Source: Lineus longissimus
Taxonomy: Eukaryota > Nemertea > Pilidiophora > Heteronemertea > Lineidae
Assembly: GCF_910592395.1 (NCBI RefSeq)
Contig: NC_088311.1
Span: 23,716,646-23,780,645, forward strand
DNA: 64,000 bases
Direction: 5' to 3'
The translations under genes and the position numbers were made by a program. Each line of letters opens with the position of its first letter. Within the stretch, counting starts at the first letter, position 1. Positions 10,532-34,272 of the stretch are shown piece by piece. The notes beneath the pieces are model-generated. The model made no database searches and was not told where the DNA came from. It worked only from the letters and a program-made list of their open reading frames with translations.

Positions 10532-13500
10532 ATGGCGGAGTTGGTGGTGTACACAGCTTTTCACTCATTCAAGCCCAGCTCAGATGATTTGAGTAGGGGT
10601 TGCATTGCCATTGAGCAGAGCGATGACCTGGAGGTGAAAAAGCCATTTGAATTTACATTTTCTGGGACTGTTGAAAAACCAGACGGATGGATTCGCGGTC
10701 GGAACCTTCGCACTGGAGAGACGGGTTATTTTCCGGGAACATTTGTGAAACACAAAGTCACCAGACCTTTCCCAAAGCCACAGCCTCGCCATTATTCTCC
10801 TGAAGCTGCTAATGCAATGGATGTGGACAGTTCTTTGGGATCAATGACGCTACAGGATGACTCTGGTTATGTCGGATCGCCTCGAGGTGGGTAACTTTGT
10901 GTCGAGTAGAGACTTATTCTAGTACAGTAGAACCTCTCTTAGCGGACACCTCTCTATTAAGGAAACCCTTTCTATTAAGGACACTAGTTTTGGTCCCAAA
11001 TTGGTTGTTTCCATTCAATTTGACCTCTCTAATCAGGACACCTCTCTTTTAAGGACAGCACTTGTCAGTCCCGAGGGTGTCCATAATAGAGAGGTTCTAC
11101 TGTAGTACATGTAGTGAATGGTCGACTTATATCTTACATGTATACATCGAAGAAGTGACAGTATGTCTTTTTTAACCTATTTGTGTCTGATGACCAATTC
11201 CACTGACCAATTAGTAATGTAGTCCTGATTTGTCTTCCTTGTTGCGAGCTTGAAATGAGCTGAAGGATATTCAATGGTTTCCAACAAAGGTTGTTTGAGC
11301 TCTGACCAATCGTGCATTTCACCTTGAACAAAAGGGTCACAGTGGCTTATGGCATTTTCCATGTGTAAATTGTGACTCGCTCTACCAAAACTAGGCGCTT
11401 GTCGCATCTGAACTTGACAGGTTGATACGGACTTGTTGTTCATTTCCCTATTGTTGACCTTTTGTGAAATCTATTACAAACTGATTTGGTCACATTCAAC
11501 AAAAGGTCTACAATAGGGAAATGAACAACAAGTCCGTATCAACCTGTCAAGTTCAGATGCGACAAGCGCCTAGTTTTGGTAGAGCGGGTCACAATTGGCA
11601 TAGGCCTTCTTGAGAAATCTGATATGTTTTGAGTGTGTGCATTTGTTTTGTTTGGACTCTGGTTTGTCTTCATCAAACCTGTCTATTGTTGTGGTGATTT
11701 GAGATTGAGAATGGTTGTGTCACTCTATACGACCAATTGGGGCTAATTTAGGGTTCATTTATTGATGTTATTGTTTCAAACCGACCTAATTTGATCTGTT
11801 GATGCGCTCTCTCACAGCAGATGTCATTGGATTCCCCAAATCATTTTCCAATCTTTAACCGAGTGCCATCTATTGGTATTACAACATTTTCTGACCCAAT
11901 AGCAGCATCCACCTCCGTGAGTGTGTGCTTGTACCAAAAGAGGTCAGGCTAGTTCCTATGGTAACCACTCTAGTGATACAGCTAACTTGTTACATCAGTT
12001 CAAAGGATAATCTGCCGGCAGCGCCAAGCGGTACATGTATATCAGGTCGGTGTTGGTGACATTTGTGCAGCTGGTGCCAGTTATTGTTGGTGAAACTATC
12101 ATGTAAAAGCCATCAAGGGAGTTACAGCTGACGTTGTCACATCTTTGGGGTAACTGTTTCAATAAGCAACTGGACCTTTCTGCACTCGGGCTTATCGTTT
12201 TTCATTTCCTTTCAAGAGTCATTTTCTCATTCAAGTAATTTTTAGCTTAGGTACATTTTTTGGGCAACTTTCTCATCAGGTTGCACCAGCTTTGTATTTT
12301 TTTGAGTTCGGGGCAAACAAGTTCAACTTCTGCATCGAATGGAAACATTATATGTTCAATTCCGGTGAATTCTTCTACAGGACCTGAAATATCAGGAACC
12401 ATTGCTATGGAAACTGATGTTTTAGACACGATTGAGGGCGATAGTGAAGGTAGGTTGGTGCACATTTTTTGTGATGGGTTTGTTTTAACTTGTGCTAAGT
12501 GCTTACATTGTACAATCCCTCTGCCCTTTTGCATTTTGTTGTGTTATTTTTCTGTATTATTTTTCTTTTTGGTGGTGTCAGGAACAACCAGTTAGTGCTT
12601 TAATTGACCCATCCCAGTGACTGTCTACGTCTCTTTTTAAAGGGGTACAGTGGTTCACTCCCCCCCCATATTTTAAATGTATTATGTTTGTTTTTTTCCA
12701 GTAAAATGTTTTTTCTCACAACATATATTTTTCGTGGAGATTTGCGAACCTCGCGAAAGTATTACGCTGGCAAAAATGTGAAGGTCTACAGTACAAGTTT
12801 ACTGGAAATGTACATTGTACAGTTTATAGAATAGAAGTGTGGAATTTGTCATGACTACCCTGTGTTATGTGTTATGTACTTCAACTACTCGGTGGTGCTG
12901 GTGATGATAATGAGCCTGGTTTGTTCCCAAAATTCTTTGTTACAGCCCCAGTTACAATTGACATCCTGAAGTTTGCGTATGGGCTATATACATGTAACCT
13001 ACGCAAAACCCTGCACGTAGCTTGCACGAATGATCAGGCAACGCTCGATATAACCTTCGCATCAGCTGTGCGCAACTTATGCAGACCTTTCGCCCAAGGA
13101 TTGTCAAGTTTCATGTTTCAAGCACAGGATATGTTACTTGTGATTGGGACTGTAACTGCAAACCCTTCTTGCTTACAGAATGTTGTATTATTTCTTGTTC
13201 ATTTTCTGTCATGGTGCCTGAGGCCAAATCATTGTGATCCAAGCTTACAAGTTCAGCTGCTGTTTTTTGCCTTTTGGCGCATGCTGCAAAAGCTTTTTAA
13301 AGATTTCTCTTACAAAGTTCTTTGCGTTCTCTGATTCATTTTACTATTACATGTAGACCATCTCGTTGCATTTTGCAGATGACACTCTGTGTCACAAAAA
13401 CACATAAAACTCCAGCTGACATCTAAATCTGTGTGTGACGTATTTGTTCCTTTTTAGTTTTTCCCTTGTGGCCTTATTATCTCAAATGCACAGCCATAAG

Positions 13501-16500
13501 ATCAGTAATTTCACGATCCGTGTAACATTTTGCAAAAATATCATTTGCTGACATAAAAGCACTTATTTGAGGTTTTTTTGATACCAGTGATGGTCATGCA
13601 GGAAAGCCTGCCGACATCTTTTAGATGGAAGCACCCTTTCTGTGTTGATCACTGTTTTCTGAGATATTTTCCTGCTGTTTTTTTGCACCACCAATAATGT
13701 CTGCAATCCGTTTGCTATGTCTGCAGCCTGCTGTCTAAGAACATGCAAAAAATGTGAACTGTAAATCGCAAAATATGTGGCAAAGGCCAGTGACAAAGTG
13801 TTACCCAATCCATGTATTATACTGGTCAGTCAAGTCTGGGCCATTCCTTTGTTATCATATGGCAACATGATGAAAATCACCTTTAAATTGAGCAGTTATG
13901 TTACCTCATTGATTTCTATGGCAACTGATTTCATGTGGGCAATAGACAGGTCACTTAGTGTGATATCTTGATCCTATGGCATGGCTATATATATCTGCCC
14001 TTAAAAGAAATTATCACCTTAAGGGGTAAGGTAGGCGAACGAAGGCCATTGAATCCTCATATGAAATTTGCTTTAAAACAATAAACTAGCACTTGTGGAG
14101 AGCTTGCTTTCTTAGATTTTTATTCCTACGTAAATCATTTGTTTGTCTTTGCAGTGCCTTCCAGAAGTCACAAGTTCATCGATACATACTTCCTCAGGCC
14201 ACAAATCTGTCTCCATTGTAAGTATACTGGTTCAGATGTTACAGTTCTGTGGTCACAATTTCATAAAGACCTCTCCAATTCGTGTACTTGTACCTTTAGT
14301 CCAAAGTCTGTGAAGCTGATTGGCTCTTGGTTCAACAATATTCCTGAATAAATGATACCCCATTCTCAATTTAGATGCAGTAGAACCTGATTTATAGTGT
14401 TGACTGGGACACTTTTCAACTACATGCCGCTTGATTCTTAGCGTGTATGTCTGTTTAACCACCCTGCATAATCTTATAATCAATAAAGGTTTCTGTTCTG
14501 CCAGCGGTGTACATTCGATTGGTGCCAAAATATGGCCCCAGTGGCGGCCGTTGACCCCTTGGGTGAATGAGGATTCACTGCCACTGCGTGATTGGGTTTT
14601 AGAAATGTCGAAAATTATCCATCCCATGTGGACAATTTTTAGGAGCATAAGTTTTTGCAAGCAGTGCTGCCTTTGCTGGGACACATTAGAGGTGTTTTGG
14701 TCTGAAACACCATTTTCTACCCTTTATATTTGCAATTCGAGAAAATTTCTTTAAAATTTTCATAATTTTATTTTGGTGGATGATGAAAGTTCTTCTGATT
14801 TTTCCACTTTCAAGTTGTGGCTAATTTGTTTCTTCAACTTCCTACTGATAGATTCTGTGCAGTCATTTGATCGTAACTTTCTTTTCCAGGTAAGGATTAT
14901 ATCTGGGGACCGAAAACAAAGGGAGCAAAGTGTGACGGTAAGAAAAGACTTCATTATGGTCATAACATTTTTAGAAGTCGAGATGTTTCTTGAAGGTAAA
15001 AACATGTATTTTAAGTAAGTGAAGACAACAACATGATCATTATTTTCATCATGATCTTTGTGGTATGAAGTAGTAGTCGAATATTCAGTGGCCTTTGGAA
15101 CCATCCGATGAATTCCAGTTGGCCTTGCTTTAGGCTTCACTCTCTTGGCTGGCACGATTTGTAAACACTAAAAACCCTGACCAGAAGAAAGTGATTCCAC
15201 CAGTAAATATTGCAGTCAAAAGTTCATCGGTGAAAAGTTCCCTCTTTCTTGTGGAAATATCTTCAAGCAACTATTCATCAGGAATTTTGTCCTGGAAGCA
15301 CTTTCTGGTAGTTTCTCTTAGCGTGTAATGTAACTGTCAATCAGCGAATGCTCCCCACACATCAAGCACTTCCAGCTGGTGATGGTAAAAATAAGCTCCG
15401 TCTTAGATAACTCTACATTACAGGGTTCCCTTGAGCTTGAATATTCATCAGCTACACCGTGAAAGAAACGCATCAGTATTTGGCTGTTTTCTGTGTTCTT
15501 GCTTTGGGAATGAAGGCAAGACAGTATAAAAGAAACCTGCAAATGAGAGATTTTTATTGCTGTGCACCACCTGTGATAATTAGCGACAAAAATATTGCTC
15601 TTCTGCAAATAAACTTGTCATTGCTTTCTTGGATAGGCCTGCAGTGATGATGGATTCTTAACTACAGCAGACGAGAGACATTTGTTGCATTTGAAAACTG
15701 TGCCATGATCTCTTGTTTGCAACGACCTGTTCATGTTTCCATAAAACTGAACGAATTTTGGGTGATCACGACTTCTTATTGCAAAAATAATGTACAATTT
15801 GCATATATTCCCCTGTAAAGGCTCTTCCTGTTCAAAGGTTTGTTCAATGAAACTTCTTGGTCTTGTTAGCTGGTCAGGTGAACTTGGTGCAAAGCCACAC
15901 CAGTTGGAACATCAAGTGTGTGTGTGGTCAGGAATCTCCATTTGAGTCAATACACCTGCCATGACCTGGCTTGAACTGTAAGAAAGAAAGAAGTCTGATC
16001 AAGACAGAAATCTCGCACAAAGTGTGTTAGTGTTGACTTACTGGAAACAAAGTGTTCGATTGTGGTGATATCCGATTGTAGTGATATCCTGCTGGACATC
16101 GGTCATGCTTGACCCATCAAAGGTTTTGATAAAGGCCTACAATATTCATGTTTATCTGAGAAAAATTGGTTCTTGTTGTTCAGATATTCGTTGTGAAAAC
16201 ACTGCTGTTCACAGCCAAATCTGCACCTACAAGAACACGATTATTAATGAGCTATTATTGAGTATCTTCGCACATTATTGGATTTATATCTGCAGCGCCC
16301 CAAGCATTGGGACTCTTTTATTATCTCAAGTGTTGACCAAGATAGGTCCTGTGGTGTCCTAAAAAAGTTCTCTTGATTAGTTCAATCGTAAGAAATAGGT
16401 CAACAAGTTCGTGAACATTTTTTGTATGATATCTTATAAGGTTTGTGAGAATGTATACAATATCCAACTTGATCTACTTTTAAAGGTACTATTTTGACCT

Positions 16501-19500
16501 ACTTTAATGATCCCACTTAGGCATGTGACTCCGACATTTACACCCACAGATAAATGTTATACTCATACCTCGCCTTCAGGCTGATGTGATACAGAAAGTT
16601 CTCCTGCAACCAACATGACCAAGGGGTCTGCCCACACCTTCATCATTGGTAACAATAGCCTCTATCAACCAAAGCTCTCCAACATTGACTCACTTCCCTG
16701 CACTAGTAGCGATTGCCGTCCCTCCCACTTCTTTGATAGCTAATGCTAAACAACTCGACTAGCTTGAACAACTTTCTTGTGTATGCTATAGCTATCAAAT
16801 AGCTTATAATGACAATGTTACATCCATCTAATCCATCTCTTTTTGTGTGAGTAACTTATGAGATAATGTACTTCCATTCAGGAGATGGAAACTGGGTTCT
16901 TTTCCTGCTCGGGATAATCATTGGCGATACTGCTGCCTTCTTTATAAAGCCGGGTGCCATTTACTTAATGCATTTCCCCTTGAGCTCAATGGTTATGTCA
17001 AGATAGTAAACCGATGCATCCACTGACCCTGTTCATCGATGATCCTCTCGTTATTTTGAAAAAAAAGGGGGCGCCATTTAGAATGTTTCCTGTGTATATT
17101 CAACTCGTAGTAGGCAGAATAAAGGAATGAAATCAAACGGCAGGATTTGCTATTTGGACCTTGACCTTTGTTTCAGGGGAGGGGGGATTGTCAGAATGCC
17201 CTGTACTAGTCCAAAAATGAAGTATTATCTCGCATAAGTTTGTGCCTATCTTTAAAGTGGGAAGTTTTTCTGCAAATTTCACAAAAAGTACAAACTATTT
17301 AACAGCTGTCAACTTTTCCTTGATTACCATGATGGTACATTGTAAGCTCTAGATCAGAAACTTGGTGATTATTTTGGGCCATGGAACAAAAATAACTTGT
17401 TTACCCTTACCCTCTGGTGTTTACTGCTGGTGCCAATTCATTTGATATCTGATATATCAAAAACATTTGGTGATTGGATTTCACGGGATACTCTTGTAAG
17501 CTCTCATAAATACTCTTGGCATGAAGTACGGATTGTTTTATGTAACCTGTGAAATGATAGTCATAATTTCTGTTGCATGGCCCTAGCCATAAATTGTCAC
17601 TCTGATTAAGGAATTGAATTCCTTTACAGAATGTCAGAAAGCGTGAGAATTGTTCAGTTCTACATCATGACAACATTTTCTCAATTTTAGGTCGGGACGG
17701 AAGAGTACTTATTTCCTTTGACAGGAAATTAGGCATGTTCTACATGCTACAGATGAAAAATTGCATGCTAAACATAACTCTTGTTTTCCATCATGGGCAG
17801 AAAAATTTGTTGACGACGATTTAATCAAATACGATACTACGTAGTTCTGATCCAGGAAAGTTTAGGTTGATATTTTGTTAGTTATGGGTGCATTACAAAA
17901 GGGCACAGCAATTCTTCTTGAAAGAGCTGCCTCCGAGAAGGAAGACATTTATAAGGCAAAGTCAATTGCTTCCGTGATTCTCTCGGATAAAAATAAAAAA
18001 TATTTTGACCAGAAAATTTTGTTTTCTCACATTTTCAGTTAATCGCCTAGCAGCGTGCAGGCTAACCAAGGTATTAAAAGAGTCTTGCCTAAAGGCGGAG
18101 TTCACAAAAAAGTTATTATGCACTTATTCACCCACATTTTACTTAATATCATGTTTACGATGATGATCAGAATATTGAAAAAAATCATTTTCGAGGTTTG
18201 GAGTACTTCGACGTTCAAATGACACTTGTTTGCTCTTAATGACATGAGCAGGTGCGATCCAACGCTAATCATGACAGGTGAAAAGCTTCTTCTAGAAATA
18301 ATCTCCCGTCATCCAGACAAAAAAATAAAAGCACGCAAACATGATGATGTTCAGTTGTCAATCTTTTTTGCAATTGAGCCTGTTGCTGTTGAATAATAGT
18401 AGGGGCACCGCACTGACATTTCAAATCACGTGTTCATGACTTTGTATTCCCTTGGCCATAACTATCCTTACTAAAAGCCTTCGCTCATTTCCTGTGGATC
18501 AGGAAGTGGATGGGGGAAGGATGCTAACTATTCTACGCTGAGAGAACCGACACTGATTAACCGTAATATCATTATCTCCAGCTCGTAGATGCACCTATTA
18601 TTTTATAACTTCGAACAAGTAGTTTTCAGAAAATATCGATTTCGATTTCAAAATTTCTAAAGAATGAACGTGTTCTTTTGTCAAGAATTACTGCTTGATG
18701 ATGTGGAAGACTTTGACTGCTCATAAGAACATGCACCGGTCCAGGACTACGTATCCCGCCATCTGTTCCCACATTTATCCCCCTTGATCTCTCATGTTTA
18801 GGACAATGATAACATTGACTGATTTGTTACTTCTGATGTCCCTTTATAAAAAAGGCCCGGCCCCATCCTGCGTCCCAATTGGTAATTTCAGCAAATCTTG
18901 TTGCAATTTTGTTCCCTTCTCGAATTTTCTTGAATCCTGCTTTTAAACATCTGTGTTACAGGACCATCCGCCCTTATGATACTTGACTTAACCATGGTCT
19001 TCCTACCGTTCCGTGTGCAATTTCATGATCAATGAATATCTAATATTCTAATGCATTACTTTGTTTCCTGTCTTTTCAGCCTGCAGTCTCTTCATTCATC
19101 ACTCGTGCCAGTCGTATGCAAATACATGTAAAAACGTCTGTCAGCGACACAGCAGCGTTCCGAGCGAACCAGTCAGAGAGTCGCAAACGGTGAGTTACTG
19201 TTAAAGGTGGTGAGGACGCTGATGAGTAAACATCTACATGAATGAATGAACCTTCAAGACAGATATTCGGACACTTGGTCTTGACATTGGGCAGATTCCA
19301 GCTCGATATCAGATGTTTACAAACCCTCGAAAATCTTTGCCAGGAGCCATTGGATGCCATGGCAACATGACCTCTAAAGTAGAATCTCATTGGTTTATTA
19401 CCCCCTCCTTCTTCCAGCCCCTCAAACATTGGTCGGTGCAGAACGTGATTGAGTGGATGGCGGTGGTAAATCTTTCCCGTTATGTGGAGATTTTTAAGCG

Positions 19501-22500
19501 GACCGAGATTAAAGGCGAAGAGTTGCTCTCAATGGATGAGGCAAGGCTTGAGGTACGGCTCAATTTGTTTCTGTTTTATCAAGGTAGGAAATGCCTCAGA
19601 AAAGAATTTGATGACTTTTGCCTGCATTTGAAACTCAAAAATGACATCAGAGGAAAAAAAGTTGTGGTTATCGGTAGGTTTAGCCATGCAACGGCTCAAA
19701 CAGGTGCTTTCTTCCATTAAATTCATTTAACAAGACATGCTTGGTACCATAAAAGTGTAAGAGTCGACGATGACTTATACCACCTAGAATACACACATAG
19801 TCCGAAAACAAATTGACATAAATGCCATAAAGGGATGTTAATATGACGCTCAAAGATAGATTGTTGGTTCGTGCAAATCTCCTTGGGGATATAGATGTTT
19901 CGGGCAGAGAGTTCAATGCCAGGTCAGTTAAACCCTCGATACATGATAAATGTCCACAATGAGGTGATATTGTTCAGTTTGAGAAAATGAACATTTGTGT
20001 TACAGAAATGGAAAGCAGAAATAATTAGTCATTAGATGATTTGTTATACCAATAAGTAGGTTAATGAAGATGGGCATATTTTTACAGGTTTACACTAAGT
20101 ATTGTATCACCTTGATCCTACTCCATCAAAGAACACGATATTACAATCTTTGCCTAGCGGAAGAGAAATCATGTCATCGGAAATAATTTTGCCAGTCATT
20201 ACCACTGGATGACAGGATATATTTCACTGTGATATCAAATTGGGACCCGTAATCTTCAGAATCTAAAATCAAAGGTTCCCATGGCAACTTTGCAAGAGAG
20301 GAAGGAAAAAATGAACTTGCATTACGGCGTGTGTGGAAAGGAAAGAATTATTATTGACTGAAGAGCTGTTTTAACCCTTTCCTGTTTCCTGAACACAGGT
20401 GACCCTTAGCAAGGTCCTGGGGCATTGACTCCATTGAGTTAACTAGTCCCTTTACATCAGTTATTCTGTCTAGTCATTTTTCGTTTATAGGGTGGAAGCT
20501 TAGCTGAGATTTTATAATGATAAGAAAACCCTATTCATTTTCCTTCTTTCACTGATCATCTGTCTTGATTTCAGAGCATGGGTATTCTTGACGGTTTCCA
20601 TAGGAAGTCACTCCTGACTGCGGTGGATGAGCTGAGTGGGAGGAACCCAATGGCAGTAAGTACAGAAGGTAGTGCAGTGCTCTTTGCTTTGGGATTGTGA
20701 ACCAGGTTTCAAAAATGTTCTGGGATGTTTCATGTTTGGGATTTTTGCCCTTCGGGAGGCAACATGAACATTGAACTTGCAAAAGTTTCAGCTTTATGCC
20801 AGGGAAGCAAAGGCTCCAAATCAAGCTAAAGCAAAAGCAAATATAGGCACAAAAAGTTGGCTGTCGTTATCACACTGATTGTCTGCTGGCGCACGTCTTT
20901 ATGGCGACAATCTACTCACCGGTTGTCGTTATTGGATTGAATGATGGGCCACGAGATGGCCATCACTGAGGGGATCAATATCTCTTCCTTGAAGTGATTG
21001 TTGCAACTGATATTTATGTGATTAACGAGAAAAGGAAAGTCCCTGGGCACTTGTGCTGACCAATCAGATACTATGGTTATACACAGACAGCAATCGGCCA
21101 CTCTCTCCACTGGAGATCGATGTCTATCCCACCTTATCCACCTTATATACAAGAGGCAGCCATAATGGGTAATAGACTGGTTGGGTCTTCAGAAAACCTG
21201 CTCTGAGAAAATAATTACTGTTACTCTAATGGGTTTAGAGCTGCCAGTGTGATTGTCTCCTAATGGCCAAGCTCAATTTGTCATTGTCTTCAATGTCTTG
21301 GTTTAGATTTGATTACATAGCATGCTGGTCTCTCAGGTGCTACTCATGGGCTGGTGTTCAGGGACACTGACTGGTGTGGTCTTCAGGGACACTAACTGGT
21401 GTGGTCTTTAGGGACACAGGCTGGTGTGGTCTTTAGGGACACAGGCTGGTATGGTCTTCAGGGACACTAACTGGTGTGGTCTTTAGGGACACAGGCTGGT
21501 GTGGTCTTTAGGAACACAGGCTGGTATGGTCTTCAGGGACACTAACTGGTGTGGTCTTTAGGGACACTGACTGGTGTGGTCTTTAGGGACACTAACTGGT
21601 GTTGTCTTCAGGGACACTAACTGGTGTGGTCTTTAGGGACACTAACTGGTGTGGTCTTTGGGGACACAGGCTGGTATGGTCTTCAGGGACACTGACTGGT
21701 GTGGTCTTCAAGGACACTGACTGGTATGGTCTTTAGGGACACAGGCTGGTATGGTCTTCAGGCACACTGACTGGTATGGTCTTCAGGTACACTGACTGGT
21801 GTGGTCTTTAGGGACACTGACTGGTGTGGTCTTTAGGGATGGTCTTTAGGTCTTTCTTGTTGAATGCCTGGTCACAATCTTTCTCATCTTTATCTTTCAG
21901 CAGCCCTTCAGTTCTTATTTTCCTCCATCAAATGGTGCTCTACAAAAAGGTATGTCCATTTAAACGTCCAGTTCTGTTATTGTAAGACCAAATGTAAAAG
22001 AACCGCGGTGTGTCCCAAGTAAGCACCTGTTCCTCTACAGTCATCAGAACTTGGTCCTTTTCATGGCCACAGGTGCAGCTGTTATTTTGCTTGTGGACAG
22101 TTTTCTCATCCAATCTTGTCACCCTCTATTGGATAATTCATACTCCAGCAAGCCAGACTACTGTTGATCAATCTTCCGTCATTTGATATCTTAAAATAAA
22201 CATCAACATCATCAATATAAGGCTAATATTGAGCTGTATTGAACTTGCCGTGAACTCTCAGTTATTTACTCCCAATATCATGTAAGTTCATTAAACACTG
22301 TGTGTGATTACGAATGAAAGATCACACAGGGCTAAAGCAGATTAAACAGAATGAATCACTTAGTGTAATCGAGGATTGGCCAGCATTTGTGTTAAGTCTC
22401 ATGGGGTCATGACACTTTGCCGGGAGAACAAATCGACCTGGAAAGATATGGAGATGTAGATGATTCATTATAGTTTAAGATAGATACCCTCATTTTTACT

Positions 22501-25500
22501 AGTTTTGGAATGTAATCAAAAAACTTTTTCCATGGTCTTGACCTTTTAGTCTTTTAGTAATTTTCGTAATTTTTTAGTCTAAAACTAAAAGGTTTCATTT
22601 ATGATGGCGGGGAAGTTCTTAAATACAGTGGAACCTCTGTTAGCGGACACCGCTCTATTAAGGACAACCTCTTTATAAAGGACACTATGTTTGGTCCCAA
22701 ATTGGTTGTTTACATTCAATTTGACCTCTCTAATCAGGACACCTCTCTATTAAGGACAGCACTTGTCAGTCCCGAGGGTGTTCATAATAGAGAGGTTCTA
22801 CTGTACCTGTTCAATAGTTAGCATGGTGATGGCCCTAATCCTGGCATGAACTCTCCGGTCCTTAGCAATCGCAGCCCCATCTTAAGAATATCCGTGGAAT
22901 GTCATGTCGTCTTAAACAGTACTTGCGGCTGCTGAAACTTCTAAAACATGTCAATGGAGTTGATAGCTGTTACCTGGCTGGTACTGACAAATTGTCAATG
23001 ACTAATCAAGTGAAGAGGTGATTGGTTTGAGTTTATCCTGGCATGACCTCTCTTGTCATTAATGATGGATGCTTTTATTTTGCAGGCAGTCTTCCCCCAG
23101 AGGCCCATCAGTTTATTGAATATTCCTTCTCTTCATTTGAAAGATGTCAGATCTGTGATAAGCTTCTTCTTGGCATCATGAGGCAGGGATTTACGTGTCG
23201 AGGTAGGTTCAAAACTTTGTTGAAAAAATACACCATTTTTGGCCTTGGGCAAGTCACTTCATATCATCGCCACATCACAAACCAAGGTTCCTTGTATTTC
23301 ATACTGATGCTGCTGCAAACAAACATCCCCATCCAAGTGAGAAACTCGAGAACGTTGTGTCTCATCCAGGGCCAATAACGCCAAGAGAAAATTGATCAAG
23401 AACTTGTGTTTATTCTTGACAAAATTACATATAACCAGTCCGAAAACTTTCTATTTTACTCTATATCAAATGTCAAAATCAAAATAAGCCCTCAGTATTA
23501 GCTGGAAGAGTTAGTTATTTACATTTACCACTGGTGAATCCATTGTCTGTTTTCTGACGTTTTTGTCTGGGCTCTAGGTGCTGGTTGCTATTTGATGTTG
23601 TGACAATGTATATTTAGCGTTGCTGGCTGAAGAAAGCAACTACCCACATATTTGCCGACAGACATTTTGGTCTAGAATTGAATGAAACTACATGTAGTTG
23701 AAAAAATTCTGCACTTTCAAAACCGGTTGAAACAGTAAAGGTCAAGCTGTCTGGTTAACTCTTTTTGACATCCGAAATTTAGTTCTGGGTCTCCGTGTCG
23801 TGTGCACCACATGTGGAGTTATTGATCAATTTAACCTTGCTCCAAGTACCACCACTTCACCCAGTTTCAGTAACCGGGCCTCCTCCATTCCACTCCCAGT
23901 TCCACTCCAGGCAAGCTGGGTGACCTAAAGTATTACAAGGGCTTGCAGTTGTCATATTTCAGTGGTACTGACCTGGATTGACTTGCCCGAACTCCAAAGC
24001 AGTGTGTCTGTATCATGTATGGGACACATGATGTTCAGGTTATGAGTTTTGACACCTTAGGCCACACCAATACCTTGGATGGGGAGGAGGCAAATTTTTC
24101 TTCATCGGATGAAGGGAAAATAAAGATAAAAACCTCAAGATATTATGTACAGAAAACCATGTGAACAACACTATGTTGGTACATTTGACTTTTGGTCAGT
24201 ATCCAAAGTATTAAGTTGGTGTGGCCTTAGTGTTATAATACATCGTCTCCACTCCTGTGGCTGCATGAGAGGCGGCTTATTCTTCGTACTAAACTTCTTT
24301 GGCTCAGAGGGTTCATCTATTATCATATGTTGTGCATCCTATAAGTTCCATTTACTTTAAGACCACACTCAATCAGCTTATATAACAATGGTCCTGTCTT
24401 TATTTGATTGCTTCTAAATTGTTAGGAAAACATCTCCATCTAATCTTCCTCATTCCCTCTCTGTAATTGTGCCCAACACCATCATCACTCATCTGTGTTG
24501 TAAAAGGCTCGTGTTGTAAAAGGCTCGTGTTGTAAAATTGCTAACAAAACAACATTTTCCGCTGCAAATTCTCACTCAAGCCATTGAAACATACATAAGA
24601 TGCTATCCTTTAATCCGGACCATCTTGTTCTTTTGCCTGGATTGTCAGTGTACTAATGCGGGATACTTGTTATTGTGCCAACCACTTATCCATATTCCAA
24701 GACTTTGGCCAGGAGAAATTGCTAAAACAACAACTTTTTCAGATGTCGTTTTTTTCTCACCAAAGTCATTAAACCAATCCGGTATGAGATGTTGTTCTAA
24801 TCCAGGCCTCCGTGGCTGTCTTTACAGAGTGTGGGCTATGCTGTCATCGTCAGTGTGCCAGTGCTGGACTGCCGGACTGTAATGCGGAAAACTTTGCCAA
24901 GAGGAAGCGTATGAGTTTAACTAAAGGTAGGTCAAGGCCGTTTCAAATTTCGGATTTCAAATCGCGAATTAATTCAAGCCATTACTTGAACATGACATCG
25001 AAAGTTAATTAGCCATTAGAACCTTTTGCAACTCGTTCAAGTAGATAGGTGGAATACCAGACATGTGGAGATCATTTAAAAAACTTCCTGCAACCTTGAA
25101 TTAGGCAATGTTGTTGTCTCCTTCCAGGTTCTGTTTTTGGGATGCCACTCAGCGATCAGTTCTCAAGACGGCAACAAGAAGCACCTGGGATCGTGATGCA
25201 TTGTTTGAAAGAAATAGAAGTACGAGGTCAACAACCAGGTGAGAAATTATCATAACATTTTGGTGTTTTGGAGGCGATCCACTGAACGTGGTGACGTGAC
25301 GAGGACTTTGACGGGAACGAGACAGGAGCCAGTTGATCACTCGCATATTTCATTATAATTTGTCCACTTTAACTGTTTAAGGACAGAAATATATTCAAGT
25401 TAAATGTTTCAGGCAAACTTCGAAGTCAAAACAAATATGTGCAAAACATCTTTCTATTGGAGGAAATTGATATCTGTATTGATGTCCTAAGGTTGAAATA

Positions 25501-28500
25501 TCATGACTTGAAGTCATTATGGTCATAATCTTTTTGTTGATCTTCTTCAGGGGTTGAAATTTTGGAAGTGTATCGCAGGTCTGCCACCACCGAGTCAATA
25601 AATGATTTGAAAGCCATTTTTAATGCTGGTGAGTATCGAAACAGATCTTTCTGATAATGTGATCAGTGGCATAGTGGTCAGAGCACCAGGCTCCTATCAA
25701 GAGGTTGCGGGTTCAATTCTATGAAGGGTCTTGGCTGTTTCATCTCTGTGTTCTTGTGCCAGAGGCCTAAATGTCATAGCAGGTCAAGTATGACGTCATT
25801 GTAAGACAATATTGTTTACCATAATCTAAACAGTCCTTATGTTACCTTGGTATCAAGGGAAGGGTCATTTCCTTTTGTCCTAGCACAGTAGCAGGTAAGG
25901 GTTATTGGGACATTTGATACAGTGCTCTGTACAGACCATCCCTATAGGTTTCCAGTGTCACCTGATGACGTCACTCTGCTCTAATTGACTGCTAGGAAGT
26001 GTCTGGCAATTATTGTATCAATCTGAAGACATATTCCTCATTACTGACTAGACTCTGTTTCATGAAAAAGTAGTGATTTTTAAGAATGAGTCAAAATCAG
26101 TTTTTTGGTGATTTTGCACAGTAAATGAAGTATTTGAACAAAATGTTATAAAATGTTATATTTCATCTGATCCTCAAGTTCAAAGAATCTAAATGTACTT
26201 ACTTTACTCCGGCTCTCATAAAGTGATTGATGATCTGTCTACTTTGGTTTTCAGCTGAAGTACCTACCGATGTTGACCTACAAACACAGGATGTTTGCTG
26301 CGTTGCCGGCCTGCTGAAGCGCTATTTACGGGAGCTCCCTGATTCAGTCATCCCGGAGGAGTTTTATGACCGGTTTTTGGATGCTGCCAGTGAGTTTTGA
26401 TACAAGATTTTTCTCTTTCATTTTGCTTGAAAAAGGGAGGGAAGCCAAAATTGTCCTCTTTTTGGGGCTGTGAATAAAGCGTATTTCGTGTGCTTTACCC
26501 TCAGATCTCGAATTTTTCATCCTATTGCAGGAAATCGAAACAATGAAAAATGTCGCGATTGCCTCCGTGCACTGACGATGGAGATGCCGGAACATCACCA
26601 AGGCACCCTGCAGTTTCTGATGGCGCATTTCTGCCGACTATGCCAGCAGTCGGCTGGAAGTGGCGGCCGTGATCCTATCTCGACGTTGTCTCAGGTTTTC
26701 TGTCACATACTTCTCCGCCCACCGTGGACACAGACAGTGTAAGTACTACTAAGTCTGTGGCTCATTGTGCATTGGAATTGCACTTCTATCAATGCATTAA
26801 GCTTCCTTCATGCTTTACGCAGCCATAGCAGGAACACAAAGTCAACACACAGCGTCACACGACCTTGTTCGGCCGCAATTGCAGTGGAAGTAAAAAGATT
26901 AAAGCACGCTGAACCCTTTTTCCCCTTCAATGTGTATTATAGCAATTAATCCACACTTGATTATAGGGATGTTGTGTACAAGACTGACCTCCATATTCGC
27001 ATCATCGACCAGCTTGTACGGGGAGGCACCTGGGGTGAGGATGTGCCCAACTACCTCGTCATGCCTCGTAAGTAGAAAATATTAATGATTTTGCAAGAAA
27101 AAGGAAATGAAAAGTTAGATGTGTTACCTTAAGGAAAAGGTTTTGTTAAAAAAATTGATTACGATAAAAAATGGCCAAAAGTTATTTATGCTTAGTCAAA
27201 TAGTGATGAATTCTAAAAAGTACATTGTCATTCACTCTTCAGCAATGTCGCCATCCTCATCGACAAATGGTTTTGATGACTTGAACGCAAACACACCCAC
27301 CACCATCACATGCCCCAATAACCTAATGGAAGCAGAGTGGTACTGGGGAGATATATCGAGGTAAACAACTGTTTTTAGTTACTGTTCTGTGGCATTTGCC
27401 ACTTACCTGCTTGGATACCTGTATTTGTTTATTCAAATCCCGATCTTACATTGTTGCCATTAGCGATGGGCACAACACCCTGGGTGTCTCGGTAATGACA
27501 GGTATGACTCCCACTCACATGACCTGCCAGCAGAAGAAACAGCAGTTAACTTGCTAGTTTGAAACACATAGCCTTTCTGCAATGTGTTTCTGTTGTTGTT
27601 GTAAAATTTGCTCATGCATGTTCAAGTCAGAAAAATTGGTCATAAGGTTAGGCAAATCACCAAATGTATAAACTCTCAGCTCTGCCTGTGAGTAACCTGG
27701 GCCTGAAAGCTACTCTTCCGCTGCTGAGGCAAGACTGGTGTTTTTTCAGGGAAGACGTGAATGACAAACTCCGAGACACACCAGACGGCACATTTCTTGT
27801 GCGTGACTCGTCTAACAAGGAGGGAGACTACACACTCACTTTACGGTATATAACTATCACTATATGTACAGTAGAACCTCCCTAAGCCGACACCTCTCTA
27901 TTAAGGACACCCTCTCTATTAAGGACACTAGTTTTGCTCCAAAATTGGTCGTTTCCATTCAATTTTACCTCTATAATCAGGACACCTCTATTAAGGACAC
28001 TACTTGTCAGTCCTGAGGGTGTCCTTATTAGAGAGTTTCTACTGTAATTGCTTCTTGATCTGATGTAAAAGCAGGAACATTCTTCTTGAGCTTGGGGAAG
28101 TAAATTGGTGACCAGCCCAACCATATCATCTAAAAGTACAATCCTGGGTTCTCCGCAGATTTGAACCCAGGCTCTGTTGCGTGTTTGCCAGCAGTGTTGA
28201 CCCCTACACATTTAGGCTCCTCATATAACATAACCATTCGTTGGAAAATCTCAATCAGTACTTGGTGATGGTGAACCTAACATTTGTTTCATGAGTGTTA
28301 TTCGTGAGTAAACGGCGCTCTATTTGAAACTTTTCCTTTCATTTTCACAGGAAAGGTGGTGGCAACAAACTGATCAAAATATATTGTAGGAATGAGAGAT
28401 ATGGCTTCGTGGAGCCTTACTGTTTCAATAACGTGATGGAGTTGATCTATCACTATCAGCACAACTCGCTCTCACAGTACAACAAGACGTTGGATGTCAT

Positions 28501-30702
28501 GTTGAAGTATCCTGTCTCCAGGTTCGCAGAGGTAAGAAGGAATTTTCTTAGATACGATGCTAATCCGTGCCCAACCATACATGCCATAGTGGCACTCTGG
28601 CGTGATGATTAGGAAACAAAACTCAAGAGATGCATCTCTAGTTAATCGTTCATGCTCAAAACGTGAAAACTTCACTGCCCTTGTCTGATGTTTATCTTTC
28701 ATGGCATGGTACTGTAGTGAATTCAGAGATTACAAAGACGATTGAGTCAGGATTTTAAATCTGTTCACTTGAAATGTTCCAGCAATCGGAGGAAGAGGAG
28801 TCGTGGAACACGTCGCCAGGCAAGGATATGATCGAGAGGCTGACGGAGATCAAGCAAGAGTACAAGGCCAAAACAGAGGAGTATGACTCGTTGTATGAAA
28901 AGCATTCGCGGACAACACAGGTGAGTTACCCCCCTACTTTCACTTGATGGGCATGATGCGTTTAAAAACTTCAGAAACATTTGAGTCCTTAGTCACATTG
29001 TTCTGTGATAAAATTAAAGTTGAACTTGATGTTCACTTTAATATTTACATAAAAATTGCCCCTGACATGACCAGATATTAACACTGATTGAGAAATAAGG
29101 TCTAATATATGGTTGAAGGAAACATGTATTTCTTGCTCTGTTTTATTCTCTGAGAAATCATCAATCATGACAAAGGCATGATCATGATGAAGATTTGTCT
29201 GAGAAATCCTCAATCATGATCATGATGAAGATTTGTCTGAGAAATCCTCAATCATGATCATGATGAAGATTTGTCTGAGAAATCCTCAATCATGATCATG
29301 ATGAAGATTTGTCTGAGAAATCCTCAATCATGATCATGATGAAGATTTGTTCACTCTGAAGGTTTCCACTAACGTTGCTGTATTTTGCCATTGAAGGAAA
29401 TCCATGTGAAACATCAGGCACTTGAAGCTTTCAAGGAGACAGTGCTCGTCTTCGAGGACCAGGTCAACTTGCATGAGAGATTCCAGAAAGAGGCTGCTCC
29501 TCACGAGATGCAGAAGTAAGTTCATTTCCCGCTTGCTTATCATGAGTTGGTGCCTACCACTATGGTTGAGCACCGATTAAGTTTATCATCCACCGTCATA
29601 TGACTCTGTCTTTGGCTGAAGTGGATGAGTCAATCACAAGCTGGAGTCTACTTGGAAGGGGATCTTTGCTTAATCGTACTCTTTTTGCGTCTTCAATATT
29701 TGACTTTCTTTACAGATTAATGGAAAACCAAAAGTTACTGAAGTCACGCCTAAATGAAATCGAGAGCAGTAAAATTCAACTCGAGGAAGACATACGCCAA
29801 CAGATCGGAATCAATCGCAATCTGATTGGCAAAATGAACAGTCTGAAGCCGGATATCAAACAGTTGTACAAGCAGAGGGAAATGTACAAGAAGAAAATGT
29901 TGGATCATAAGATCGAAATGGACACGATCGACCATATTTTAGAAGACAAGTGAGTAATCCTTGTTTGATTGTTTTTCTTCCTGTCCTGGTCTCCTTGTAA
30001 CTCGGATGGGAATGCTAAAATGTGCAAACGATCAAAAACCCTGCTGAAGTGAATTGGAGGAATCAAAGAATATTCTGAAACCAACAGGATAAAATGCATT
30101 CATTTTGCCAACTTGCTTGATTTCACAAAACCAACATGCTCCTCTTTAGGAATCCTAATGTTGTTTTATGTTTTATCTCAAGGTTGCCCCACCTTGACCA
30201 GAAGACGTGGTACCTTGATGTGAGCAGAGAAGAGGCCCTTCAGCTGCTGAAAGGGCGACCCGTTGGCACCTTTATCATCCGACCGAGACAAAAGGGAGGA
30301 TATGCTCTTTCTGTTGTGTAAGTGTAGTTCATTTGCAGAATCTCTGACAAATTCCCAAAAAATGGTCATCACTGCCAAAAGGTTCTCTGGTTAACCCATA
30401 CCGAAACCCCTCCAGGGATTCTACAATCAAGCCATGAGTTTTTTGCTCCATTAATGTCATAAGTAAAACCTTTTCTCATATTTTCCAGTTCCAGAGAAAA
30501 AGTGGAGCATTGCATCATATGTCAGGACAAAAACGGGCATTTTGGTTTCTCGCCGCCATGCACGATGAGTTCGCTGATGGACCTTGTCTTGCACTATGCG
30601 AAAAATTCTTTAGCTGAACATAACCAGGCATTGCCAGTGCGACTTTTGTATCCAGTTCAACAGTCTGAAGAGTCGCAGATTTACACCTCCATGCAACGAT
30701 AA
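10532..30702 (+). CDS. PIK3R1-like: PI3-kinase class IA regulatory subunit, p85-type, with added C1-SAM-C1 block
   Basis: Regulatory adaptor that binds phosphotyrosine proteins and inhibits and stabilises p110 through its inter-SH2 coiled coil. Coding exons: 10532-10886, 12381-12449, 14155-14217, 14890-14937, 19080-19189, 19418-19552, 20575-20655, 21901-21949, 23086-23202, 24828-24926, 25128-25238, 25551-25628, 26255-26389, 26531-26738, 26967-27067, 27243-27360, 27750-27845, 28351-28531, 28783-28920, 29397-29515, 29716-29949, 30183-30317, 30489-30702. They total 2994 bases (997 aa) with every junction in frame. Domains: SH3 about 1-80; C1 at H147-C195; SAM 216-287; canonical C1 at H311-C360; RhoGAP 376-586; nSH2 about 614-718 (FLVRDSS); coiled coil 719-881; cSH2 882-997 (FIIRPR). 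Vertebrate p85 is about 724 aa, and the extra length is the C1-SAM-C1 block. The SH2, coiled-coil and RhoGAP assignment is firm. Exons 2 and 8 are the least certain, being supported by phase and splice sites only. Confidence 0.9.
10923..11104. mobile_element. Pogo-like MITE, copy 1 (intron of p85 gene)
   Basis: A 182-bp element is bounded by TA on both sides, with inverted ends reading TACAGTAGAACCTCTCT from either side. Internal units such as TATTAAGGACACC repeat within it. The TA target site and CAGTAGAACCTC terminus fit Tc1/mariner-pogo type non-autonomous elements. Two further copies occur at 22624-22805 and 27867-28046. Confidence 0.8.
11369..11595. mobile_element. Foldback MITE, copy 1 (intron of p85 gene)
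   Basis: Nearly perfect inverted arms of about 95 bp, starting TTGTGACTCGCTCTACC, surround a loop of about 30 bases containing CTATTACAAACTGATTTGG. The whole element would fold into one long hairpin. A second copy lies at 31254-31479 with the loop inverted, so the two are inserted in opposite orientations. Confidence 0.9.
14938..19079 (+). other. Large intron of the p85 gene (about 4.1 kb)
   Basis: It lies between the two halves of the first C1 domain (14890-14937 and 19080-19189). Scanning both strands shows only short, stop-rich frames and no recognisable domain. A small two-copy repeat (CGATTGT.GTGATATCC) occurs at about 16058-16090. No other feature is supported. Confidence 0.5.
21345..21850. 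repeat. 25-bp intronic minisatellite, about 20 copies
   Basis: The unit is GGTGTGGTCTTTAGGGACAC plus about five further bases (variants CAGGCT, TAACT, TGACT). It is tandemly repeated through this intron and ends about 50 bases before the acceptor of the exon at 21901. Variant types are interspersed, indicating repeated unequal exchange. Confidence 0.9.
22624..22805. mobile_element. Pogo-like MITE, copy 2
   Basis: It has the same 182-bp structure as the copy at 10923-11104, with TA-flanked inverted ends. It starts TACAGTGGAACCTCTGT, carrying substitutions in the left end. It is intronic in the p85 gene and in the same orientation. Confidence 0.8.
25661..25730 (+). mobile_element. tRNA-derived SINE head (RNA polymerase III boxes)
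   Basis: TGGCATAGTGG at 25667-25677 resembles an A box and GGGTTCAATTC at 25709-25719 resembles a B box, with tRNA-like spacing. No clean cloverleaf is present, so a tRNA-derived SINE or tRNA relic in the intron is likelier than a functional tRNA gene. The 3' body of the element is not delimited. Confidence 0.5.
27867..28046. mobile_element. Pogo-like MITE, copy 3, 21 bases after a splice donor
   Basis: A 180-bp copy of the same family, TA-flanked, with ends TACAGTAGAACCTCCCT and TTTCTACTGTA. It lies directly downstream of the donor of the nSH2 exon ending at 27845. Small deletions relative to the other copies indicate independent decay. Confidence 0.8.
28137..28215 (-). mobile_element. tRNA-derived SINE fragment, minus strand
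   Basis: On the minus strand, AAATGTGTAGGGGTCAACAC resembles an A-box region. After a tRNA-like arm it is followed by CCTGGGTTCAAATCTGCGG, a good B box. The order and spacing are tRNA-like but the acceptor stem is not complementary. It is intronic in the p85 gene. Confidence 0.5.
29147..29350. repeat. 38-bp tandem repeat with embedded palindrome
   Basis: About four to five copies of a 38-base unit run from AGATTTGTCTGAGAAATCC to TCAATCATGATCATGATGA, followed directly by the next coding exon at 29397. Each unit includes ATCATGATCATGAT, which is self-complementary. Later units are almost identical. Confidence 0.9.
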
Positions 30703-31253: not shown

Positions 31254-31479
31254 ATGTGACGCGCTCTACCAAAACTAGGCGCTTGTCGCATCTGAACTTG
31301 ACAGGTTGATGCGGACTTGTTGTTCATTTCCCTATTGTAGACCTTTTGTGAAATGTGACCAAATCAGTTTGTAATAGATTTCACAAAAGGTCTACAATAG
31401 GGAAATGAACAACAAGTCCGTATCAACCTGTCAAGTTCAGATGCGACAAGCGCCTAGTTTTGGTAGAGCGAGTCACAAA
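31254..31479. mobile_element. Foldback MITE, copy 2 (3' UTR of p85 gene)
   Basis: The arms match the element at 11369-11595 almost base for base, and the loop reads ATGTGACCAAATCAGTTTG, the reverse complement of copy 1. It lies between the stop codon (30702) and the likely poly(A) signal (32096). It would therefore be a long hairpin in the mature mRNA. Confidence 0.9.
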
Positions 31480-32150: not shown

Positions 32151-33386
32151 TACCCTGGAGAGGAGGTGACATTGTGTAGTTGTCTGAGACTACACCTGGT
32201 TTCCCTGGAGAAGATGTGACAGTGTGTAGTGTGCTTGAGAGGGGCCTGGTTGTCCCCTGTTGACCTCTGGAGAGGAGGTGACATTGTGTAGTTGTCTGAG
32301 ACTACACCTGGTTTCCCTGGAGAAGATGTGACAGTGTGTAGTGTGCTTGAGAGGGGCCTGGTTGTCCCCTGTTGACCTCTGGAGAGGAGGTGACATTGTG
32401 TAGTTGTCTGAGACTACACCTGGTTTCCCTGGAGAAGATGTGACAGTGTGAAGTGTGCTTGAGAGGGGCCTGGTTGTCCCCTGTTGACCTCTGGAGAGGA
32501 GGTGACATTGTGTAGTTGTCTGAGACTACACCTGGTTTCCCTGGAGAAGATGTGACAGTGTGAAGTGTGCTTGAGAGGGGACTGGTTGCCCCTGTTGACC
32601 TCTGGAGAGGAGGTGACATTGTGTAGTTGTCTGAGACTACACCTGGTTTCCCTGGAGAAGATGTGACAGTGTGTAGTGTGCTTGAGAGGGGCCTGGTTGT
32701 CCCCTGTTGACCTCTGGAGAGGAGGTGACATTGTGTAGTTGTCTGAGACTACACCTGGTTTCCCTGGAGAAGATGTGACAGTGTGTAGTGTGCTTGAGAG
32801 GGGCCTGGTTGTACCCTGTTGACCTCTGGAGAGGAGGTGTCATTGTGTAGTTGTCTGAGACTACACCTGGTTTCCCTGGAGAAGATGTGACAGTGTGTAG
32901 TGTGCTTGAGGGGGGCCTGGTTCTCCCCTGTTGACCTCTGGAGAGGAGGTGACATTGTGTAGTTGTCTGAGACTACACCTGGTTTCCCTGGAGAAGATGT
33001 GACAGTGTGCAGTGTGCTTGAGAGGGGCCTGGTTCTCCCCTGTTGACCTCTGGAGAGGAGGTGACATTGTGTAGTTGTCTGAGACTACACCTGATTAACC
33101 TGGAGAAGATGTGACAGTGTGTAGTGTGCTTGAGAGGGGCCTGGTTGTCCCCTGTTGACCTCTGGAGAGGAGGTGACATTGTGTAGTTGTCTGAGTCTAC
33201 ACCTGGTTTCCCTGGAGAAGATGTGACAGTGTGCAGTGTGCTTGAGAGGGGCCTGGTTGTCCCCTGTTGACCTCTGGAGAGGAGGTGACATTGTGTTGTT
33301 GTCTGAGACTACACCTGGTTTCCCTGGAGAAGATGTGACAGTGTGTAGTGTGCTTGAGAGGGGCCTGGTTGTCCCTTGTTGACCCA
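32151..33386. repeat. 112-bp minisatellite, about 11 copies, between convergent genes
   Basis: Each unit runs from GGAGAGGAGGTGACATTGTG through TCTGAGACTACACCTGG to CCCCTGTTGACCTCT. The period is 112 bases, with one unit of 111, and copies differ by only one to a few bases. It separates the 3' end of the p85 gene (+) from the 3' end of the CBM20 gene (-). The minus strand shows repeated open frames because 112 is not a multiple of three and stops recur only once per three units. I treat them as non-coding. Confidence 0.95.
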
Positions 33387-33432: not shown

Positions 33433-34272
33433 TTATAAAAATGTTTTTTTAATCTCGATTGCTGTTGCCCGTAGGAGCCACCCAACTAATTTATGAAGAT
33501 ATCCCCAGGGATGAAATCCCTTTTCGGTGTCTTCAAGAGGTAGGGTGTCGAGCTTGATCGTCACCTCCCCCAGTTCATCAAACCCCTTTGAGGTCACCAA
33601 AGACGGAGAGTAGCAGACGACACTTCGCCGCGTGAACTCCTCCGTCCAAAGGACTTGGTTGTCCTTCAGCATCGCCCACTTCCATTTATAGCACCGCCCA
33701 ACTGGGAGCTCCGCCTGACATATCCAAAATCCCGAGTCCTCCAAAACTTCGTTGGCTTTCAAGCAGAGATCGTGGTTCCACTCGCCAAGTTCACGGAGCG
33801 ATCCAATGACGACAGGACGCTCACTCCAGAGAGCGTTGTGTTGGAGCCCGAAGAGTGTCTTCGTGCGACCTGGTTTCCCTGGCTTTGGCGGCCGGTATGC
33901 CGTGGTGTCTTTCGTGATGCCTAACTCTCGGAGACCGCTGGCAGCTCTCATACGGTCTTGGACCTTCTGACGTATTGCTTCCAAGTCTGAAAAAGGGAGA
34001 TGTTGGGTTGACGCGCGGGCGGGACCAACTGAGGAGGATAAACCCATAATTTGGTCGAGGCGGTGATGAAAGTCCCCCAAAAAATGACAACTTTGAAATT
34101 GACTGTGAAATTCCTCAACATCCCTCACTCAGGCAAAACGATCTCCCCTTTCGAAATCCTGACTACGCGGACAAATATGATGCTTACCATCCGAAAAATC
34201 ATCGTGGGGGCGAGCCCATTTCGGGAGCGACTCAATAAGTCGTTGATCAACCTCGTCTTTGCTATTAACCAT
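33433..34272 (-). CDS. CBM20 (starch-binding) domain protein, two exons
   Basis: The coding exons are 34188-34272 and 33433-33986, joined by a 201-base intron with GTAAGC donor and TTTTTCAG acceptor; the junction is in frame and gives 212 aa. The CBM20 core spans about residues 70-150: VVIGSLRELGEWN, GFWICQAELPVGR, YKWKW and VLWTEEFTRR match the family pattern of a Gly-Ser-x-x-x-Leu-Gly-x-Trp loop and conserved aromatic residues. CBM20 domains bind alpha-glucans such as starch or glycogen. There is no catalytic domain, signal peptide or membrane segment, so a cytosolic glycogen-binding adaptor is inferred. A charged helical N-terminus (EAIRQKVQDRM) precedes the domain. The gene is head-to-head with DNAAF11. 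An uninterrupted reading from 34128 to 33433 also exists, but its upstream frame has a stop, which the splice removes. Confidence 0.75.

Follow-up and report, generated by a model that had tools for sequence, protein, structure and literature searches.

The 64,000-nucleotide stretch of the Lineus longissimus genome studied here (C4:23716646-23780645 of the 391-Mb assembly; hereafter the window) raises the question whether the regulatory subunit of phosphatidylinositol 3-kinase (PI3K) in this heteronemertean (Nemertea) carries two C1 domains and a SAM domain between its SH3 and RhoGAP-type domains, as an earlier note on this DNA had claimed, and where such a block comes from. Most of the detailed knowledge of PI3K regulation comes from human p85. 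In our study, a gene on the plus strand at 10532-30702 was found to have 23 exons with joining phases, and all 22 introns are of the GT-AG type. Its single frame of 997 amino acids encodes the domain order SH3-C1-SAM-C1-RhoGAP-SH2-iSH2-SH2 of a p85-type PI3K regulatory subunit, and the claimed architecture is borne out by both the exon model and the Pfam matches. The gene product is almost certainly a class IA PI3K regulatory subunit, the p85 orthologue of the ribbon worm. Taken together, it is probable that this protein represents a bilaterian-type p85 and that vertebrates have lost the C1-SAM-C1 block; a scaffold role of the extra half of the protein is proposed tentatively. Removal of exon 2 gives a product of 974 amino acids which is letter for letter the RefSeq entry 'phosphatidylinositol 3-kinase regulatory subunit alpha-like isoform X2 [Lineus longissimus]'. 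A search of the 391-Mb assembly with the inter-SH2 profile returned two matches, both being exons of this gene, although a strongly diverged second p85 copy could be overlooked by such a search.

The exon arrangement places the block between the first exon and the RhoGAP exons. Exon 1 (10532-10886) carries the ATG and the SH3 region (amino acids 1-118) and ends in phase 1. The SH3 region is the only Lineus domain that falls under the Pfam cut-offs (best E 0.0068); residues 45-109 partly align with residues 44-116 of human p85-alpha, its SH3 region (domain i-Evalue 1.2e-4). Exon 2 (12381-12449), which is missing from isoform X2, encodes a linker of 23 amino acids. The first C1 domain (C1-1) is divided among exon 3 (14155-14217), exon 4 (14890-14937) and exon 5 (19080-19189), which hold its first, middle and last parts. 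The SAM domain begins in exon 6 (19418-19552) and ends in exon 7 (20575-20655), both phase 0 in and out, and after the linker exon 8 (21901-21949) the second C1 domain (C1-2) is encoded by exon 9 (23086-23202) and exon 10 (24828-24926), both phase 1 in and out; the SAM pair is flanked by phase-0 introns and the C1-2 pair by phase-1 introns. The block coordinates, the joining phases and the length of 997 amino acids agree with those of the earlier note. The RhoGAP region starts in exon 11 (25128-25238), continues through exons 12 (25551-25628), 13 (26255-26389) and 14 (26531-26738) and ends in exon 15 (26967-27067). Exon 16 (27243-27360) encodes a linker and the start of the N-terminal SH2 domain, which extends over exon 17 (27750-27845, with GTFLVRDSS) and exon 18 (28351-28531). 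The inter-SH2 coiled coil, which binds p110 in p85, is encoded by exons 19 (28783-28920), 20 (29397-29515) and 21 (29716-29949), and the C-terminal SH2 domain by exons 22 (30183-30317) and 23 (30489-30702), the latter with the stop codon.

When the whole protein was compared with Pfam, C1_1 (E 1.7e-16, two stretches), SAM_1 (PF00536, E 8e-14, 52.2 bits against a cut-off of 23), SAM_2 (E 7.3e-13), the RhoGAP-type (BH) domain (E 6e-27), SH2 (PF00017, E 4.2e-36, two stretches flanking the inter-SH2 region) and iSH2 (PF16454, E 1.6e-40, 138.8 bits against 31.5) were all over the cut-offs, so that the C1, SAM and RhoGAP assignments of the earlier note held in the profile check it had proposed for the 997-residue model. 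The zinc ligands were also found as that note had given them: H147, C160, C163, C177, C180, H185, C188 and C195 in C1-1, and H311, C324, C327, C341, C344, H349, C352 and C360 in C1-2 with the exact spacing H-x12-C-x2-C-x13-C-x2-C-x4-H-x2-C-x7-C. The eighth ligand of C1-1 is either C195 or C199; the column of the latter (C176 in the isoform numbering) is near-invariant in an alignment of 30 proteins. An AlphaFold2 model of the full-length Lineus protein (P0001) has a mean pLDDT (predicted local distance difference test) of 82.4 and a pTM (predicted template modelling score) of 0.51, and its inter-domain arrangement was not used. The SH2 domains of the model fit the p85 SH2 structures with a root-mean-square deviation of 0.6-1.5. 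The comparison of the model with PDB was dominated by matches of the RhoGAP, p85 SH2 and inter-SH2 regions, and the C1 and SAM domains were assessed by sequence.

The block is not restricted to the ribbon worm. The whole protein, used as query, matched 13 entries, 11 of them p85-type; its C-terminal half matched 1811, from which the best 120 by likeness to Lineus were taken; and the N-terminal half of the amphioxus protein, scored only against the 7988 candidates with most words in common, matched 37. The C-terminal query is the fairer sample, as the other two favour block-bearing proteins. These searches were pooled to 148 distinct proteins, of which the 137 with an inter-SH2 domain form the p85-type set. 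Domains were called by profiles built from the 30-protein alignment, whose members were then among the proteins scored, and the genera other than Lineus are placed in the phyla to which we take them to belong. Of the 137 p85-type proteins, 94 carry some part of the block (C1-1, SAM or C1-2), 58 carry all three domains and 43 carry none; among the best 120 of the 1811 C-terminal-half matches the corresponding numbers are 77, 48 and 43. The SH3 domain together with all three block domains is present in 46 proteins, 45 being complete to the last SH2 and one partial (Solemya, P0011). Within the set used for the tree, the complete architecture was seen in spiralians (two nemerteans, eight molluscs and a bryozoan), arthropods (four chelicerates, two myriapods and three insects) and deuterostomes (two crinoids, a sea urchin, one hemichordate and two amphioxus species). 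All three block domains without SH3 are found in rows from a brachiopod, two hemichordates, Limulus, Haliotis and Schistocerca. A nemertean novelty is rejected, the block being found in p85-type proteins of many other invertebrates.

The 43 block-free proteins comprise all 36 vertebrate-named rows and seven short proteins of 557-621 amino acids, Cryptotermes included; the statement of the earlier note that vertebrate p85 lacks these domains held for the sampled rows, neither C1 nor SAM being found in any of the 36. Among the groups which that note had named for an orthologue survey, the block was recovered in molluscs, a brachiopod and amphioxus, whereas the annelid rows hold only part of it, either SAM-C1-2 or C1-2 alone. 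Eight proteins have SAM without either C1 domain. Six of them bear an organism name, in each case that of a true bug (Rhynocoris, Rhodnius, Nesidiocoris, Pyrrhocoris, Nezara and Apolygus), so that a secondary loss of C1 inside the insects is likely.

What the block may do depends first on its C1 domains. In PKC-delta, Pro241, Gly253, Gln257 and Gly258 are described as the strictly conserved non-zinc residues of a diacylglycerol-sensitive C1 domain in PMC9110374. These positions were counted in 127 strictly spaced copies (43 of C1-1 and 84 of C1-2, in 84 of the 148 proteins); one C1-1 copy (P0128) was assigned by hand, deviant copies such as the amphioxus C1-1 lie outside the count as exact spacing was demanded, and the rows here and in the RhoGAP count are related by descent and not independent. 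All four residues occur together in none of the 127 copies. C1-1 has the Pro in 43/43 copies and the Gln in 0/43, with Trp in all 42 rows listed, whereas C1-2 has the Gln in 84/84 and the Pro in 0/84, with Gly, Gln and Gly jointly present in 83; in Lineus, Lys stands at the Gln position of C1-1 and Phe at the Pro position of C1-2. By this four-residue test, neither p85 C1 domain is of the typical kind. The sampled phyla had probably not yet diverged when the opposite defects of the two became fixed.

These counts bear directly on the proposal that the extra domains tie PI3K to diacylglycerol, with one or both C1 domains binding it, perhaps as a split site, and the output of phospholipase C recruiting PI3K. 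The zinc ligands of both domains are kept, C1-1 is nearest to the C1A of PKC-beta and has the invariant Pro along with the Trp, and C1-2 holds its three residues almost without exception; on the other side, the full set is found in none of the 127 p85 copies, while the C1 domains of PKC-beta (both), PKC-gamma, PKC-delta, PKC-theta, Munc13-1 and both chimaerins hold all four residues in the displayed PDB alignments. The coupling of PI3K to diacylglycerol through C1, which the earlier note had suggested, is weakened because neither domain has the full contact set, and we consider it unlikely. A still bolder picture, in which the PI3K of the bilaterian ancestor took membrane and GTPase input through its own regulatory subunit, the two half-set C1 domains possibly formed one composite site, and the vertebrate stem lost nine exons in frame as one piece, which cut this input and left the human enzyme derived and simplified, is speculative and has a small chance of being right in all its parts.

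The RhoGAP-type domain was judged by three positions. Catalytic RhoGAP proteins have an arginine finger, a conserved Lys and a catalytic-site Asn (Asn194 of p50RhoGAP). In the 30 aligned rows (29 readable and one gap at the finger) the finger is Arg in 22, including Lineus, where the position lies in exon 12 (Y-R-R-S). The Lys, encoded in exon 13, is kept in 29/30 rows, Lineus included. The catalytic-site Asn is lost in 29/30 rows and is present only in Saccoglossus; in Lineus the position, in exon 14, is Thr. The Saccoglossus protein (P0095) is the sole row of the 30 having Arg, Lys and Asn together. From these residues, docking without efficient catalysis appears the likeliest function of the domain. 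When the RhoGAP domain alone was compared with PDB, a comparison made since human p85-alpha has no C1, beta2-chimaerin (68.3 bits), ARHGAP15 (65.9) and N-chimaerin (53.5) stood above the human p85-alpha entries (41.6-48.2), and the lead of chimaerin and ARHGAP15 was narrower than with C1-2 included. Judged by these RhoGAP-only scores, the Lineus domain resembles ordinary RhoGAPs in sequence no less than it resembles the BH domain of vertebrates. For SAM, the best-scoring solved relatives are liprin-beta-1, CNK2 and DGK-delta.

The SH2-iSH2-SH2 half of p85 is known to bind and restrain p110 and to release it on phosphotyrosine, and the same half of the Lineus protein would, as in known p85, bind and restrain p110 until phosphotyrosine frees it. 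The C1-SAM-C1-RhoGAP half would then act as a scaffold, being neither a diacylglycerol sensor nor an efficient GAP: both atypical C1 domains would keep their zinc ligands and contact protein or membrane in general, the RhoGAP-type domain would dock a Rho- or Rab-type GTPase with little catalysis, and SAM would link p85 molecules with one another or with a different SAM protein, clustering PI3K at membrane sites. The scaffold role is favoured because none of the C1 copies counted has the full contact set, the Asn is lost in nearly all of the aligned RhoGAP domains while most keep the Arg and the Lys, and the best-scoring solved SAM relatives are liprin-beta-1, CNK2 and DGK-delta; even so, it is put forward tentatively, its chances being somewhat below even.

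The direction of change was read from an unrooted tree of 44 named proteins, built on the SH2-iSH2-SH2 part (389 columns). A starred branch sets off each of the molluscs, insects, vertebrates, hemichordates, echinoderms and amphioxus; the deuterostome branch has 100/99 and that of vertebrates with amphioxus 88/84. The block label switches once on this tree, and with a root outside the vertebrates this single change is either one loss toward the vertebrates or one gain at the base of the rest. Loss is favoured over gain because the vertebrates nest inside the deuterostomes. The block is probably ancestral in bilaterians, and its loss in the vertebrate line after the split from amphioxus is very likely on the present sequence comparisons; an ancestral architecture lost toward vertebrates, which the earlier note had raised as a possibility, is the best reading of the spread over phyla and the tree. 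According to PMC8805411, invertebrates have one PIK3R1/2/3 gene and the three vertebrate paralogues arose from two genome duplications; the loss would predate these duplications because alpha and gamma are both without the block. The opposite course, in which the vertebrate SH3-RhoGAP form is ancestral and invertebrate lineages gained the block separately, draws on the tree being unrooted, as change counts alone cannot separate gain from loss; it is very improbable in view of the same three-domain order in protostomes, echinoderms, hemichordates and amphioxus, with each domain matched by its own profile, the position of vertebrates within the deuterostomes, and the C1 domains of cnidarian and ichthyosporean relatives and the SAM of choanoflagellate relatives recorded in PMC4617754.

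Several points weigh against the combined reading of an ancestral block, a vertebrate loss and a scaffold role. The block label stands for any block domain, so that Owenia with C1-2 only and two bugs with SAM only are counted as carriers. On the tree the two nemerteans do not group, nor do the two annelids, 8 of the 41 inner branches are open, the bryozoan sits on a long branch, and the deep spiralian part gives no firm order. Tunicate, lamprey, cnidarian or sponge names do not occur among the matches listed, which says nothing on those groups; the loss can therefore be placed no more closely than after the amphioxus split and before the jawed vertebrates. The vertebrate sample leans to one paralogue: 33 of the 36 rows and all six in the tree are named gamma or PIK3R3, alpha is represented by one row with a damaged model (P0079) and the human entries, and there is no full-length beta among the rows. 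The gene structure was read from the genomic sequence and the RefSeq match. With regard to function, the finger Arg of the RhoGAP domain is lost in 7 of the 29 readable rows, and loss of Pro or Gln may reduce diacylglycerol binding of a C1 domain without abolishing it.

The exon phases are in keeping with a loss in one step. Phase-1 introns stand on either side of the stretch of exons 2-10, one behind exon 1 and one ahead of exon 11, and this stretch can therefore be removed in frame; skipping it leaves 740 amino acids with no stop, in comparison to 712-732 amino acids in the six vertebrate rows of the tree. Such matching phases are expected by chance in about 1 of 3 cases, and the fit with removal as one unit is suggestive only. 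That the model fuses two neighbouring genes, one SH3-C1-SAM and the other RhoGAP-SH2, might be thought from the long introns between the early exons and from some mollusc and annelid proteins that begin after or inside SAM, but the chance is negligible and a fusion artefact is rejected, as RefSeq isoform X2 joins both halves identically, the domain order is shared by many phyla, and some p85 proteins of about 1000 amino acids come from contigs just 3.7-5.6 kb in length (P0002, 1014 amino acids on 5233 bases; P0055, 1005 on 3682), which we infer to be spliced transcripts.

Nine proteins from molluscs, annelids and others (P0016, P0028, P0030, P0036, P0045, P0064, P0070, P0107 and P0136) have other N-termini. 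Judged by eye, these N-termini appear to meet the shared part where exon 7 or exon 8 of Lineus lies, so that the protein is reduced to C1-RhoGAP-SH2-iSH2-SH2, which suggests alternative first exons in mollusc, annelid and other p85 genes.

Besides the p85 exons, the window holds several repeats and neighbouring open reading frames (ORFs). An inverted-repeat element resembling a miniature inverted-repeat transposable element is present in two copies, at 11391-11573 in intron 1 and at 31275-31457 between the stop codon and a downstream minisatellite; a 36-bp probe is exact on both arms of each copy. This minisatellite, 3' of the p85 stop codon, lies at 32155-33384 (112-bp unit, 11 copies, 97% matches), and another is found in intron 7 at 21352-21839 (25-bp unit, about 19.5 copies, 88% matches). 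Interspersed sequence appearing similar by eye occurs in three p85 introns, at about 10920-11110, 22630-22805 and 27870-28050. Two UDP-glucuronosyltransferase-like single-exon ORFs on the minus strand (41993-43543 and 45808-47361) are 97% identical and represent a recent tandem duplication. The minus strand also has an ORF with a starch-binding domain (33433-34128) and rhodopsin-type receptor ORFs (49282-50304 and 56596-57825), and the plus strand an ankyrin-repeat ORF (52632-54188). An Rfam scan and a tRNA scan (bacterial setting) of the 64,000 nucleotides found nothing.

One of the known systems close to the Lineus protein is chimaerin, which consists of an N-terminal SH2, a typical C1 and RhoGAP. 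C1-2 and RhoGAP of Lineus align in one piece with beta2-chimaerin (99.9 bits). The chimaerin C1 has the full Pro-Gly-Gln-Gly set, whereas p85 C1-2 is without the Pro and is preceded by SH3, C1 and SAM; an identity with chimaerin is rejected on these differences. PKC C1A and the Munc13-1 C1, the best-scoring solved relatives of C1-1 and C1-2, and the SAM domains of liprin-beta-1, CNK2 and DGK-delta share single-domain likeness only.

The presence of C1 and SAM in invertebrate p85 has already been published (PMC4617754, PMC12817958). Philippon et al. 2015 (PMC4617754) report p85 relatives with C1 from Mollusca, Cnidaria and Ichthyosporea, with SAM from Mollusca, Arthropoda and Choanoflagellida, and with an additional SH2 from Cnidaria and Ichthyosporea. 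Similarly, a 2025 shrimp paper (PMC12817958) describes two C1 domains and a SAM in Penaeus vannamei p85-alpha that human p85 does not have, with the speculation that these may promote interactions of a shrimp virus; because the block is spread over many phyla, these domains are old host features. Mollusc p85 with C1 and SAM (PMC4617754) and shrimp p85 both resemble Lineus, and no domain-level difference was seen in what the two articles make accessible, where the whole architecture is not traced to amphioxus, echinoderms or hemichordates. Searches of the open-licence literature on this question found domain-level reports, and in the text covered none of them states the vertebrate loss or the split C1 residues. 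Our study adds that the block reaches across bilaterians, that its probable loss falls between amphioxus and jawed vertebrates, that its exons can be skipped in frame and that the diacylglycerol residues are divided over two C1 domains, a division which offers a direct handle on C1 function.

The long forms of vertebrate PIK3R1/2/3 have SH3, RhoGAP-type, SH2, inter-SH2 and SH2 in the same order as Lineus, where the SH3 is weak, and human p85-alpha aligns to Lineus residues 383-985 (protein E 1.1e-117). The human protein matches Lineus only there and at residues 45-109, and vertebrate p85 differs in the absence of C1 and SAM from every vertebrate-named row. If the proposed history is true, the C1, SAM and RhoGAP inputs of molluscs, arthropods, echinoderms and amphioxus are a part of a central pathway that has received little study, and human p85 is a reduced form of an older protein.

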